DNA from: Leptolyngbya sp. SIOISBB
GTDB lineage: Bacteria; Cyanobacteriota; Cyanobacteriia; Phormidesmidales; Phormidesmidaceae
Assembly (NCBI GenBank): GCA_010671905.1
Contig: JAAHII010000001.1
Coordinates: 5,952,001-6,016,000 of the forward strand
Direction of reading: 5' to 3'
Length of the DNA stretch: 64,000 nucleotides
Positions 34,162-41,144 of this stretch are shown in pieces (positions within the stretch are counted from its first letter, which is position 1; every line of letters starts with the position of its first letter). The notes under the pieces were generated by a model, which ran no database searches, had not been told where the DNA came from, and saw only the letters and a program-made list of their open reading frames with translations. The position numbers and the translations under genes were made by a program.

Positions 34162-35073
34162 ATGCGGGAGCGATTCGAGCAGCGATCGCCAAAGGGAAGG
34201 ATTAATAAGTGGTGGCTGATGGGAGCGATCGCCACTCCGGTCTTTCTCGGAATGGTGGGGTGGTTGTGGCTACTTCCTGAGCGCCGTCTTCAAATAGATG
34301 AGGGTCGCCGATCCCTCAACGAAAGCGCCCCCCTGGTTCACCCCCATCGTGCAGCCTCGATCAGTGATCTGGGCACGATAGCAGCGGTTGCTGCTGGAGT
34401 CTTCTTATTATTCAAGTTCCGCATGGCCAAAAGCAATGCCGAGACCCGAGACCTCAGCGGTGCCGACTTTTGCGGGGCTGACCTTAACGGTGCTGACTTT
34501 TGTGGGGCTGATCTCAACCGTGCTGACCTCAACGGAGCTAACCTCAGTGACGCCAACCTTAGTGGTGCCGACCTCAGTGGTGCCAACCTTAACGGAGCTG
34601 AGCTGAGCGGTGCCAACCTCAGCGGTGCCAACCTCAGCGGTGCCAACCTCATCAGTGCCAACCTGAATGGGGCTGACCTCAACAAGGCTGGGCTCAGATA
34701 TGCCAACCTCAGCGGTGCCAACCTCAGGTATGCCAACCTCAGTGGAGCTGACTTCAACTGTGCCAACCTCAGTGGGGCTGACCTCAACTGTGCCTTAATC
34801 ATCGATGCCAACCTCAGCGATGCCAACCTCAGTGGGGCCTTGCTATTTTTTATTAATTCACGAGAAGCTCTCAATCTTGAGCCGTTTCAACTAAAGGCTC
34901 AACCTTCGCCTTTTTTATGTAATGTTGCTCTGCCGGCTTATGCCCAACAACCCCGTGTGAATCCCAATCGCGACTGCGATCGCATTCCTCAACTCTTGAG
35001 TGCCCGCTATGATATTTCACTCGAAGAGGCACAAGGGATCGTCGATGAAGCGCGACAACATCGCTGGGACTAG
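34162..35073 (+). CDS. Membrane-anchored pentapeptide-repeat protein
   Basis: 303 residues. A basic N-terminus leads into a membrane helix (about 18-39), then a second hydrophobic segment (about 70-86). About 26 pentapeptide repeats of the A(D/N)LSG type run from 97 to 227, forming a right-handed quadrilateral beta-helix. A C-terminal tail ends DRIPQLLSARYDISLEEAQGIVDEARQHRWD, which looks like a small helical domain. The DNA is a 15-base quasi-tandem repeat, and the long minus-strand frame over it is a mirror artefact. Common in cyanobacteria; function usually unknown. Confidence 0.9.
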   Translation: MRERFEQRSPKGRINKWWLMGAIATPVFLGMVGWLWLLPERRLQIDEGRRSLNESAPLVHPHRAASISDLGTIAAVAAGVFLLFKFRMAKSNAETRDLSGADFCGADLNGADFCGADLNRADLNGANLSDANLSGADLSGANLNGAELSGANLSGANLSGANLISANLNGADLNKAGLRYANLSGANLRYANLSGADFNCANLSGADLNCALIIDANLSDANLSGALLFFINSREALNLEPFQLKAQPSPFLCNVALPAYAQQPRVNPNRDCDRIPQLLSARYDISLEEAQGIVDEARQHRWD

Positions 35074-37623: not shown

Positions 37624-39345
37624 TCAGGTTTTGTGGGATATCACGTCTTGGGAGAGCGGATCAATCATCGCTTGCACTTGCGCTAAGTAATAAGCCGAAG
37701 GGCCATCGGTTGGGACGAGTTCCAAGCAGGCAAGAAACTTAGTTTTGGCTTCTGACCAGCGGCGATCGCGATAGGCGGCGATCGCTATTTGGAAGCGATC
37801 GCGGAGTTTGAGTTGGACATCATCGGTGTCACCCGTGACCCCTAATAGCTCATAGATCGGTTCCGATGGGTCTTGGGTCGTGAAATCCAGAGTATCGATT
37901 TCGCGCGTTTCAAAAGCGTCACCAGCCAGGTCGCGGGTCTTAGCCGTAAGCAAAATGCGGGTGCCGTAGCGCTTGTTCATTTCCTCTAATTGTTCAGCTT
38001 GATGCACTGCTGCACCCATGACTGTATAGGACTTAGACTGCTCAGAGCCGATATTGCCCGCCACAACTTCCCCACTGGCTAGGCCAACCCGAATATTAAT
38101 GTCAGGTAATCCCTTACGAATGCCTAGCAGTTCTGGTAGCTCTCGGCGTAATTTTGTGAGCTGATCAAATTGTTCCAGAGCCGCGTAGCAGGCGAGTTTG
38201 GCATGGGCGCTAGGGTCTACAAATGGTGGCCCCCAGAAGGCACTAACGGCATCGCCAAGAAACTGATTCACCACACCGCGATGGGCTTGAATGGGGGCAG
38301 AGGCCAGGGTCAGGTACTGATTAGTCAACGTCACGAGTCCGCTCGGGGTGAGTAATTCGCTAATGCCGCTAAATCCCGCAATATCAGAGAAAAATAGCGT
38401 CATCATTTGACGCTGGCCACCTTGGGGTTGCGTCTGCTGGGTCAGCAGCGTTTCCACAATGCGCGGATCGACATATTGACCAAAGGTGGCTTTGAGCCGT
38501 TCTTTTTCCTTCAAATCGCGCACCATGAGGTTGAAGGAGTCGGTTAATTTACCCACTTCATCGCCCGAGTAGACGGGCAACTCAACGTCTAAATCGCCGT
38601 GTTCGACGGCCTGAGTTTGAGTGACTAGGCGGCGCACCGGACGCACTAACCCCGTCGTGACGACTGAGGCGAAGGCCATGCCTACGACGCTAGCGATTCC
38701 GGCTAACCACCAACTCAGCGTCAGGGTACTCCGTTCGTGGGCTGCGACTTGCTGAGCCGCCGCCTCAATAAATTCGGTCACTTCAAATAAAATGGCTTGC
38801 AAACGGGCGTCAAAGTCATCTTCAAAAACCACTAGTTGCTCACTCAGAAGTTGGGCGGTTTCAGTATCACCGGCTTCGTACAGCGCCAGAATTTGGAGTC
38901 CATATTCGTGGAGTTTTTGGTGATCTTCTTCGAGCACGGTGAGGAGGGGACGAATCCGCGCAATTTCCAGCAAATTTTCGACCCGATAAGCATTCTCCGC
39001 AGCGGCATCGGCTAGAGTCATGGCTTGGGCGATGTCTTCATCGACCAGTTCACCGCGCGATTCGAAGGCCGCTATCTCTTGGCTAATGCGGGAGGCATCA
39101 ACGGGATCGATTTCGTAATAGCGCAGCACCCGCTCGAAATGAATTTCCTGCTCTAGAACATGAATATTGATTTCGGCGAGATTTTCGGTAATGGGGGTGA
39201 GGTATTCAGCAATGTCGGTGAGTTCTTGATTGACCTGGCGAATGCGGACATAGCTGAGATAGGTCACCCCTAGCAGCAAGACCAACATGCTGCTGGCAAC
39301 ACCGAAGATTTTGGTGCCGATGGATAGTGAAAGGCGAGGTTTCAT
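37624..39345 (-). CDS. Membrane class III nucleotide cyclase lacking transition-state residues (C1-like)
   Basis: 573 residues from ATG 39345; the longer frame from 39417 would overlap the upstream gene. TM1 about 13-33, a periplasmic helical sensor (35-208), TM2 about 209-230, HAMP (231-285), cyclase domain (312-480) and a TPR-like C-terminus. Both metal aspartates are present: Asp321 in FFSDIAGF and Asp365 in FLGDAVSAFWG. The substrate Lys is replaced by Gln361, and in the YTVMGAAVHQAEQL segment the conserved Asp, Asn and Arg are Ala445, His448 and Gln452. Alone it should not make cAMP. Its paralogue immediately upstream has the complementary set, which suggests a heterodimer. Confidence 0.93.
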   Translation of the reverse strand: MKPRLSLSIGTKIFGVASSMLVLLLGVTYLSYVRIRQVNQELTDIAEYLTPITENLAEINIHVLEQEIHFERVLRYYEIDPVDASRISQEIAAFESRGELVDEDIAQAMTLADAAAENAYRVENLLEIARIRPLLTVLEEDHQKLHEYGLQILALYEAGDTETAQLLSEQLVVFEDDFDARLQAILFEVTEFIEAAAQQVAAHERSTLTLSWWLAGIASVVGMAFASVVTTGLVRPVRRLVTQTQAVEHGDLDVELPVYSGDEVGKLTDSFNLMVRDLKEKERLKATFGQYVDPRIVETLLTQQTQPQGGQRQMMTLFFSDIAGFSGISELLTPSGLVTLTNQYLTLASAPIQAHRGVVNQFLGDAVSAFWGPPFVDPSAHAKLACYAALEQFDQLTKLRRELPELLGIRKGLPDINIRVGLASGEVVAGNIGSEQSKSYTVMGAAVHQAEQLEEMNKRYGTRILLTAKTRDLAGDAFETREIDTLDFTTQDPSEPIYELLGVTGDTDDVQLKLRDRFQIAIAAYRDRRWSEAKTKFLACLELVPTDGPSAYYLAQVQAMIDPLSQDVISHKT

Positions 39346-39383
39346 GGTGGTTGGGGATGATGACAAACGGCTATCCAATAGAT

Positions 39384-41144
39384 CTATTTTTGGGTCAGTT
39401 GCCAGACGCCGTCCCAATCGTCAGCGGGCGGATTGGCGGCCAGGGTGGTGAGGCGGTCGAGGTAGAGGAGCGCGGGGCGATCTCCTGGTTTGCTCGCTAA
39501 GCAGGCCTCAAAGTGCTGTCGGGCCGTGACCCAATCTCGCTGCCGATAGGCGGCTAACCCTTGTTCAAAGGCGGCAACAGCGGCTTGTTCGGTTTCAGCC
39601 AGGGTGTCTAAAGGTCCCAGCAGTTCATAGATGCGGACAGGCTCGGCTTTGCCGACTACCTGAATTAAATCCAGCTCGCGGGTCGCCATCGTCGGTGCAA
39701 TTTGCTGCTGGGTGGCTTGGCTGAGCAAAATGGGGACCCCGTATTGCTTGCTCGCTCCTTTGAGCCGTGATGCTGTATTCACGGTGTCGCCCATGACGGT
39801 ATACGATTTGGTCGTCTCCGAACCCATGTTGCCCACCACTAACGCGCCCGTGGACAGGCCAATATGGAGCTGCAGGTTAGTGACATCGGCCGTGGGGGCG
39901 ATCGCGGTAATTTGCTGTCGCACAGTCTCCATGACTTGCATCTGCGCCAGGGCCGCTTGGCAGGCGAGGTTGGCGTGAGTATCGGCTGCGGTAAAAGGCG
40001 GCCCCCAGAAGCCCATAATCAGGGTGCCAATAAACTTGTCGATGACGCCTGTATGACTAGAAATGGCGGCTGACATCACCGTTAAATAGTCATTGATGCA
40101 GCGAATTTGTGCGTCGGGGTCAAGGGTCGCCAACACCATTTCTAACCCATCGACATCGGCAAAAAATACCGTCATCACTTGGCGATCGCCCACCGGTTGG
40201 GCTGTTTCCTCTTCTAACAAATTGTGGACAATACGCGGATCGATATATTTGCCAAACGTTTCTTCAAGCCGGGCTTTGAGTCGCAGTTCGTTAACCATGC
40301 CGTTAAATGCCTGAGCCAGTCGGCCAACTTCATCGCGGCTGGAGGTATCAAATTCAGTGTCGAGGTTGCCCGCTTGTACGGCGGCAATGCCCCGGGCGAG
40401 CGATCGCACCGGACGCACCAATCCCCTCGTGACGAGGATGGCGTAGATCAACCCAAAGACCGTGGCAACGGCAGCCACAGTTAAGCTGAGACTTTGCACA
40501 GTTTGTTGATGCTGTTGCCCCGCTTGGGCGGAACTGACCGTAAACGCTTCTAATTCTAGAAAAATAGTATTAATCGCCTCGTTGAAGTCGGTTTCTTCGG
40601 CAATGAGTTGGTCTTCTAGCTGTCGAGCGGCAGTGAGATCACCGGCTTCCAGGAGGGCAAACAGGTCTACCGCATGGTCATGTAACTGCTGGTGTTCGAT
40701 TTCGATCTCTTCTAAGAGCGGTTCAATATACTCCCACTCAGCCTGATGACGCGATTGCCCCGATTCCTTCAGAGCAGTTTGAGACAGAACAATCGCCGCC
40801 GCAATTTCTGCATCGACGAGCTCACCCCGTGATTCAAAGGCGATGAGTTCTTGGGCAATGCGCTCAGTATTGAGAGGCTCAATTTCGTACAGCTTTTGCA
40901 CTCGCTCAAAGTGCAACTCTTGCTCTAGCGCATGAACATCAACGGCGGCCACGCGATCGGTAATGGGAATCACGTATTCTGCCAAGGCGGTCACTTCTTC
41001 ATTAACCTGCCGCAGGCGATCAGTGAAAACATACACCACCAGAATGAGCAGTCCGAGCAAACTGGTGGCAATGCCAAAAATTTTGATGCCGATAGAAATC
41101 CCCTGAGCGCGAGCTGCTGATGAATTAGACGTACCAACAGTCAT
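39384..41144 (-). CDS. Membrane class III nucleotide cyclase lacking second metal Asp (C2-like)
   Basis: 586 residues with the same layout: TM1 about 21-40, periplasmic helical sensor, TM2 about 218-239, HAMP, cyclase domain (320-490) and a C-terminal TPR-like part (FEQGLAAYRQRDWVTARQHFEACL). Metal site 1 is Asp330 (FFADVDGL), but the second Asp is Thr374 (KFIGTLIMGFWG). Lys370, Thr449 (class IIIb substrate residue), Asp453, Asn456 and Arg460 (YTVMGDTVNTASRL) are intact. It lies 38 bp upstream of the other cyclase and in the same direction. A homodimer would lack a metal ligand; a heterodimer with the neighbour would have one complete site. Confidence 0.93.
   Translation of the reverse strand: MTVGTSNSSAARAQGISIGIKIFGIATSLLGLLILVVYVFTDRLRQVNEEVTALAEYVIPITDRVAAVDVHALEQELHFERVQKLYEIEPLNTERIAQELIAFESRGELVDAEIAAAIVLSQTALKESGQSRHQAEWEYIEPLLEEIEIEHQQLHDHAVDLFALLEAGDLTAARQLEDQLIAEETDFNEAINTIFLELEAFTVSSAQAGQQHQQTVQSLSLTVAAVATVFGLIYAILVTRGLVRPVRSLARGIAAVQAGNLDTEFDTSSRDEVGRLAQAFNGMVNELRLKARLEETFGKYIDPRIVHNLLEEETAQPVGDRQVMTVFFADVDGLEMVLATLDPDAQIRCINDYLTVMSAAISSHTGVIDKFIGTLIMGFWGPPFTAADTHANLACQAALAQMQVMETVRQQITAIAPTADVTNLQLHIGLSTGALVVGNMGSETTKSYTVMGDTVNTASRLKGASKQYGVPILLSQATQQQIAPTMATRELDLIQVVGKAEPVRIYELLGPLDTLAETEQAAVAAFEQGLAAYRQRDWVTARQHFEACLASKPGDRPALLYLDRLTTLAANPPADDWDGVWQLTQK

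Follow-up and report, generated by a model that had tools for sequence, protein, structure and literature searches.

In mammalian transmembrane adenylyl cyclases (tmACs), the metal-binding aspartates come from the C1 domain and the substrate-specifying and transition-state residues from the C2 domain, leaving one pseudo-active site (available text of PMC4174876). Soluble guanylyl cyclase (sGC) shares out its nucleotide- and metal-binding residues between two homologous gene products, α and β. According to the accessible part of PMC3591389, the phosphate-binding Arg lies on α, the Asn, Arg and Lys lie on β and a pseudosymmetric site lacks the key residues; Arg574 of sGC α and both Arg552 and Lys593 of sGC β are expected to stabilize the γ-phosphate, and the residue numbers Lys1065, Asn1025 and Arg1029 are also given there. 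Among eukaryotes, class III cyclases are known that work as heterodimers in which one site is live and the other dead. Here, we describe two adjacent genes, A and B, in a 64,000-nt stretch of the genome of Leptolyngbya sp. SIOISBB (assembly GCA_010671905.1, contig JAAHII010000001.1, positions 5,952,001–6,016,000; the whole stretch is referred to below as the window). Judging from their sequences, A and B very probably encode one subunit each of a class III adenylyl cyclase that is an obligate heterodimer, as an initial annotation of the window had proposed; the C1/C2 division of roles to which this annotation appealed is indeed published (PMC4174876 and PMC3591389, as far as their available text goes).

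Like sGC α and β, A and B are two homologous gene products that divide the active-site residues between them. However, human sGC has a haem–NO sensor and a guanosine-type pocket, whereas A and B are bacterial membrane proteins whose sensors are of the helical/HAMP kind and whose Lys/Thr pocket is of the ATP type. The mammalian C1/C2 enzymes differ in another way: they are single polypeptides with 12 transmembrane helices, compared with two genes and two predicted transmembrane helices each for A and B. The chytrid rhodopsin guanylyl cyclases RGC1/2, paired with NeoR, can also be likened to A and B, being sensor-cyclases that are active only as a heterodimer joining two different sensors (available text of PMC8815786), although they are fungal and light-driven. 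The solved folds closest to A and B are those of CyaC from Spirulina, CyaB from Pseudomonas aeruginosa and Cya2. These three enzymes are homodimeric, with a site built from two copies of one chain. In our alignment the CyaB chain carries the full set of Asp, Lys, Asp, Asn and Arg, whereas A and B are each incomplete. Finally, cyclases with a WDG tail motif occur in the same cyanobacterial genomes; they share WDG with B but, unlike A and B, all 34 that we compared keep both metal Asps, the Lys, the Asn and the Arg, and over the catalytic part and tail none of them exceeds 34% identity to A or 37% to B. The literature searched, largely at abstract level and with subscription papers mostly outside the search, yielded no cyclase encoded by two bacterial genes whose sites complement each other. 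The bacterial, two-gene form with membrane sensors appears to be new.

Complementary active sites in A and B

The two genes are as follows.

39384..41144, minus strand: gene B, candidate C2-like subunit, 586 residues (transmembrane helix, helical sensor, transmembrane helix, HAMP, class III cyclase domain and helical, tetratricopeptide repeat (TPR)-like tail)
37624..39345, minus strand: gene A, candidate C1-like subunit, 573 residues (architecture as in B, without the WDG tail motif)

They lie head to tail, B upstream and A second, with 38 bp from the B stop codon to the ATG of A, and their products are 41% identical. Both proteins exceed the Pfam cut-offs for HAMP and Guanylate_cyc (the latter curated) and have the class III fold, which makes them members of the class III nucleotidyl cyclases. 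The active-site positions are listed below with their conservation in 13 A and 12 B sequences; genome G651 and a truncated A row of Spirulina sp. SIO3F2 were left out of the counts, the SIO3F2 A being read from two contigs.

38383..38385, minus strand: A Asp321, first metal Asp (kept in 13/13 A, one read from the first of two contigs)
38251..38253, minus strand: A Asp365, second metal Asp (kept in 13/13 A, one read from the second of two contigs)
38089..38091, minus strand: A Arg419, position of the C1-type phosphate-binding Arg (Arg in 13/13 A; role from the available text of PMC3591389)
38263..38265, minus strand: A Gln361, at the substrate Lys position (Lys lost in 9/13 A)
37990..38013, minus strand: A Ala445 to Gln452, where the transition-state motif is broken up (no Asn in 13/13 A, no Arg in 12/13)
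40155..40157, minus strand: B Asp330, first metal Asp position (Asp in 10/12 B, Gln in 2/12)
40023..40025, minus strand: B Thr374, at the second metal Asp position (Thr in 12/12 B)
40035..40037, minus strand: B Lys370, substrate-selecting Lys (12/12 B)
39798..39800, minus strand: B Thr449, adenine-selecting Thr position (12/12 B)
39777..39779, minus strand: B Asn456, transition-state Asn (12/12 B)
39765..39767, minus strand: B Arg460, transition-state Arg (12/12 B)
39648..39650, minus strand: B Lys499, position of the C2-type phosphate Lys (12/12 B; lost or unaligned in 10/13 A)

In alignments to the solved enzymes and of A with B, Gln361, Ala445, His448 and Gln452 of A stand opposite the Lys, Asp, Asn and Arg of B. 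The split extends to two further positions, namely the phosphate Arg (Arg419 in A, His427 in B) and the phosphate Lys (Lys499 in B, with none in A). The mammalian number R484 is the label that we take for the C1-type phosphate Arg position. The adenine-selecting Thr position, on the other hand, is occupied by Thr in both chains (Thr449 in B and Thr441 in A). Neither chain therefore has every metal, substrate and transition-state residue that a chain of the homodimeric type carries; their losses are complementary and would leave one complete composite site, as in sGC and the C1–C2 pair of tmACs. The substrate pair on the C2-like chain, Lys370 with Thr449, is of the adenylyl type (Lys with Thr or Asp).

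The residues read by the initial annotation (Asp321, Gln361, Asp365, Ala445, His448 and Gln452 in A; Lys370, Thr374, Thr449, Asp453, Asn456 and Arg460 in B) are all right, and no missing residue proved to be displaced elsewhere when A and B were aligned with the solved enzymes, with each other and with the comparison cyclases. Its inclusion of an Asp in the transition-state motif (Asp453 in B, replaced by Ala445 in A) holds only in part: this Asp is conserved in 33 of 34 compared relatives, but the position is not that of a general catalytic residue, because Arg stands there in P. aeruginosa CyaB.

Conservation of the split across genomes

The positions that A has lost are variable in A and fixed in B: the Asn position is occupied by His, Arg, Gln, Ala or Glu in A and the Arg position by Gln, Lys, His, Thr, Tyr or Asp, with a single Arg in genome G643, while B is invariant at both. 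The first metal Asp column behaves in the opposite manner, with Asp or Gln in B and no variation in A. B has also lost the phosphate Arg (11/12), and A keeps the adenine-position Thr (13/13). This split is maintained in the compared rows at 41–65% identity to the window proteins.

The comparison set was drawn from the window genome and its family. It started from 48 listed loci, or 46 without L016 and L020 of the window, of which 41 gave an open reading frame (ORF); five loci had no blastp hit at 1e-3 (L007, L017, L019, L021 and L022), L023 and L024 were unused and seven loci with weak hits were dropped (L001–L006 and L018), leaving 34 rows of cyclases close to B. In addition to their intact metal, Lys, Asn and Arg positions (34/34 each), these have Thr at the adenine-selecting position in 30/34 and Gly at the phosphate Arg position in 32/34.

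We also calculated the chance of strictly complementary loss over six positions (the two metal Asps on one side; Lys, Asn, Arg and phosphate Lys on the other), conditional on the number of residues lost per pair. It is 0.022 for the window pair and 0.004–0.067 over the seven pairs computed, values that are not to be multiplied because the pairs share ancestry. In all seven, the losses hit C2-type residues in A and C1-type residues in B.

One apparent exception was set aside. A contig-end copy of A in SIO3F2 has Ala at the second metal Asp, where a second contig reads Asp. The two contigs overlap by 191 bp, of which 179 are identical, and the 12 mismatches are clustered in the last third of the overlap, near but not at the very end. 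We infer that the Ala is an error or a strain mixture at the contig end; were it real, the second Asp would be kept in 12/13 A.

Co-occurrence and phylogeny of A and B

The pair was found in 14 genomes, 13 cyanobacterial and one a Latescibacterota metagenome-assembled genome (MAG). The other carriers are the window genome, Leptolyngbya sp. PCC 7375, Adonisia turfae CCMR0081, Leptolyngbyaceae MAG.088, two uncultured Pseudanabaenaceae bins, Spirulina sp. SIO3F2 and the genomes G132, G628, G643, G651, G670 and G701, these last six having come from searches that covered either the class of the window or the order to which SIO3F2 belongs. Its distribution is patchy and most genomes searched lack it: it is present in 4/63 genomes of the window's family (the window included), 7/388 of its class, 6/388 of the order of SIO3F2 and 1/64 Latescibacterota, and in 2/6 and 1/6 genomes in two further scans. 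Both 388-genome scans scored only three candidates per genome at strict limits (1e-80 and 1e-110), and copies that are distant, fragmentary or single could have escaped them.

The initial annotation had offered co-occurrence as a check on the pairing, and in all 14 genomes holding a member of either clade the other member, or a trace of it, is present. The traces are of two kinds. In MAG.088 the contig ends within the gene upstream of A, and the 28 residues that remain directly upstream of A end in WTGVWKLAKK; we take them as the tail of B from their position and the WTGVW motif, a motif that also occurs in other cyclases. In G651, A and B are adjacent and both fragmentary. The genes stand side by side in 12 genomes, in the order B–A in ten and A–B in two (the Latescibacterota MAG and G643), with about 0.8 kb between them in G701. 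In G628 and G670 they lie on different contigs with different neighbour genes, yet both are kept and the split is intact; a distance of some kilobases between them is still possible in G628.

A and B form sister clades. In a tree of the catalytic part with 17 A/B rows the supports are 96/91 for A, 100/97 for B and 100/100 for A+B; in a larger tree with 25 A/B rows they are 99/96, 89/78 and 100/99, respectively. The outside rows in both are cyanobacterial comparison cyclases. The sensor half alone, with no catalytic columns and no outside rows, recovers the A/B split at 100/99. The same groups of genomes recur in the two clades, namely the window with PCC 7375, Adonisia and the two bins; G132 with SIO3F2; and G628, G670 and G701. 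The internal order of this last trio differs between A and B, and the deep branches of A are unresolved. The simplest reading is a single duplication followed by joint inheritance. The B of the window ends in WDGVWQLTQK, all eight B tails compared end in WDGVW(Q/R)LTxK and WDG is present in 11 of 12 tails taken from the comparison cyclases. A looks like the more altered copy, since it keeps only remnants of this motif, in G132, the Latescibacterota MAG and SIO3F2.

A putative composite site and its alternatives

We propose that the catalytic domains of A and B pair head to tail. The live site would combine the two metal Asps and the phosphate Arg of A with the Lys/Thr pair, the Asn/Arg pair and the phosphate Lys of B to produce cAMP, the Lys/Thr of B choosing ATP and its Asn/Arg stabilizing the transition state; the site is predicted to be ATP-specific because B has Lys/Thr. 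The second site at the interface, without a full metal site and transition-state residues, would be dead and possibly regulatory, and A:A and B:B homodimers would be dead as well. Since each subunit has its own helical sensor and HAMP, the output would depend on an A:B pair that could read two different inputs. The results that speak for the heterodimer are the residue split in 13 A and 12 B set against the 34 intact comparison cyclases, the contrast between variable and invariant columns in the two proteins, the sister clades, the co-occurrence of the genes, the retention of both in G628 and G670 despite their separation, the class III fold of both modelled domains and the published role splits of C1/C2 and sGC α/β.

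Several observations count against this proposal. The first metal Asp persists in 10/12 B and the adenine-position Thr in 13/13 A, although a dead site should need neither; A also keeps the substrate Lys in 4/13, a Lys or Arg at the phosphate Lys position in 3/13 and the transition-state Arg in G643. Thr374 of B is fixed (12/12) instead of drifting. The argument from Arg419 is weak because Gly stands there in nearly all of the comparison rows. The B clade has support of only 89/78 once the long-branched G643 is included, and an operon is not required, since A and B lie apart in two genomes.

Of the alternatives, the one that survives best, though we regard it as improbable, is that A and B are both catalytically dead pseudo-cyclase receptors whose signalling would run through contacts with other proteins, such as one or more further cyclases of the genome. 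Each protein is indeed defective alone, and the 8.3 Mb window genome holds 22 other cyclase-family matches, some of them two per protein, as possible partners. Yet dead receptors would give no reason for the invariance of both metal Asps in A, for that of the Lys, Thr, Asn, Arg and phosphate Lys in B or for the co-occurrence of the two genes. The same abundance of cyclases, together with the A genes of G628 and G670 that do not adjoin B, would suit an A that is a regulatory partner of several cyclases beyond B and serves them as a shared C1 subunit. This is quite unlikely in our estimation: none of the genomes searched yielded A without B or a trace of B, and the genome groups in the A tree are mostly those of the B tree.

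We give little credence to the idea that A and B are each homodimers of low or altered activity, B working with a single metal Asp and A with non-canonical transition-state residues, and the tandem a simple paralogue pair. It would account for the first metal Asp kept in most B and the Lys kept in some A, and replaced substrate-selecting residues are tolerated by some class III cyclases. It meets, however, with the loss of the second metal Asp in every B and of the Asn in every A, and it leaves the co-retention of the two genes unexplained. Moreover, sGC homodimers with a like split are without significant activity (available text of PMC3591389). Decay of two redundant tandem copies, complementary by chance, can practically be dismissed, for although G651 holds fragmentary copies of both genes and the chance for a pair taken singly is 0.004–0.067, a chance origin is rejected on the conservation of the 13 A and 12 B against the 34 comparison cyclases: the frames are open and full-length, the live-site residues are invariant at 41–65% identity and in two phyla, and the further lineage-specific losses (first metal Asp to Gln in B, Lys to Gln or Cys in A) hit the dead site.

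We lean slightly towards a broader reading of the pair, in which prokaryotes would have invented the C1/C2 division of labour independently, as a two-gene receptor cyclase whose two different extracytoplasmic sensors must pair, with a coincidence or ratio gate on cAMP and a dead site left free as an allosteric pocket like the forskolin site, and in which the pair would be old, its genes being separated in some lineages and present in two phyla. Such an enzyme would be a compact two-input cAMP switch. Moreover, loss of the dead site has gone further in some lineages than in others (the Lys still present in 4/13 A, the Arg in one A, the first metal Asp already gone in 2/12 B), which would allow a direct test of how a symmetric enzyme becomes an obligate heterodimer.

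Domain architecture and structural models

The domains of the two proteins lie as follows.

40503..41009, minus strand: helical, presumably extracytoplasmic sensor region of B, about residues 46–214 (approximate limits by eye; model helices)
40281..40436, minus strand: HAMP of B, residues 237–288 (Pfam)
39642..40178, minus strand: cyclase domain of B, residues 323–501 (Pfam and structure match)
38731..39234, minus strand: helical, presumably extracytoplasmic sensor region of A, about residues 38–205 (approximate limits by eye; model helices, sub-threshold TarH and 4HB_MCP_1)
38509..38649, minus strand: HAMP of A, residues 233–279 (Pfam)
37903..38409, minus strand: cyclase domain of A, residues 313–481 (Pfam and structure match)

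The sub-threshold Pfam matches to TarH and 4HB_MCP_1 are confined to A. AlphaFold models of single chains show the same succession in both proteins: two long helices on either side of a helical region, then the HAMP region, the α/β cyclase domain and finally a tail of helices, with a mean predicted local distance difference test score of 80.9 and a predicted template-modelling score of 0.49 for A (79.8 and 0.48, respectively, for B); these low template-modelling scores make the arrangement of the domains uncertain in both models. The architecture that the initial annotation had claimed for both proteins is borne out for the HAMP, the cyclase domain and the helical sensor and tail; no Pfam TPR family exceeds its cut-off in the tail, TPR_2 reaching only sub-threshold E-values of 0.034 in A and 0.0048 in B. 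The cyclase domains match CyaB, CyaC, Cya2 and OaPAC by alignment and Foldseek. The best Z score for the A model is 25.0, to CyaB, compared with 21.2 to mammalian 1azs_A (root-mean-square deviation 2.7 over 181 residues), and the B model matches CyaB with a Foldseek TMt of 0.87.

Gene neighbourhood and other observations

The ORFs on either side of the pair were compared by eye between the window, PCC 7375/Adonisia and the Latescibacterota MAG; this gave no shared partner gene, only those of PCC 7375 and Adonisia being alike. A promoter and terminator scan found no more than in shuffled sequences, Rfam gave nothing in the window at gathering score and the NCBIfam matches all fell far short of their cut-offs, almost all of them lying around the HAMP region. 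In G670, where A lies away from B (locus L123, 252–4890, minus strand), A is 59 bp downstream, on the same strand, of genes that by eye are dnaJ-like and dnaK-like.

The Latescibacterota contig looks genuine, because a protein flanking the pair is typical of the phylum: it shares 82% identity with a protein from a second genome of the phylum, and hits to it at E 1e-60 occur in 47 of 64 genomes. Cyanobacterial contamination of this contig is disfavoured on the same grounds. The pair stands there (L071) in reversed gene order beside this phylum-typical gene, a possible case of inter-phylum transfer.

The window genome also encodes, at about 3,999,600–4,001,200 of its contig C1 (locus L065, 2608–4188, minus strand), a single 526-residue protein with two cyclase-domain matches. 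By eye and unaligned, its first domain has Asp-type metal motifs without the Asn/Arg motif and its second has Asn in place of the first metal Asp; it may be a one-chain C1–C2 cyclase of the soluble adenylyl cyclase type. A second such two-domain cyclase, at about 6,809,000–6,810,600 of the same contig (L066, 3065–4632, minus strand), is divided between two ORFs that differ in frame and are separated by 2 bp, which could reflect a frameshift, a sequencing error or two chains. Finally, the plus strand of the window encodes at 34162–35073 a protein that contains a run of pentapeptide repeats and, as judged by eye, is hydrophobic over a stretch at its N terminus.

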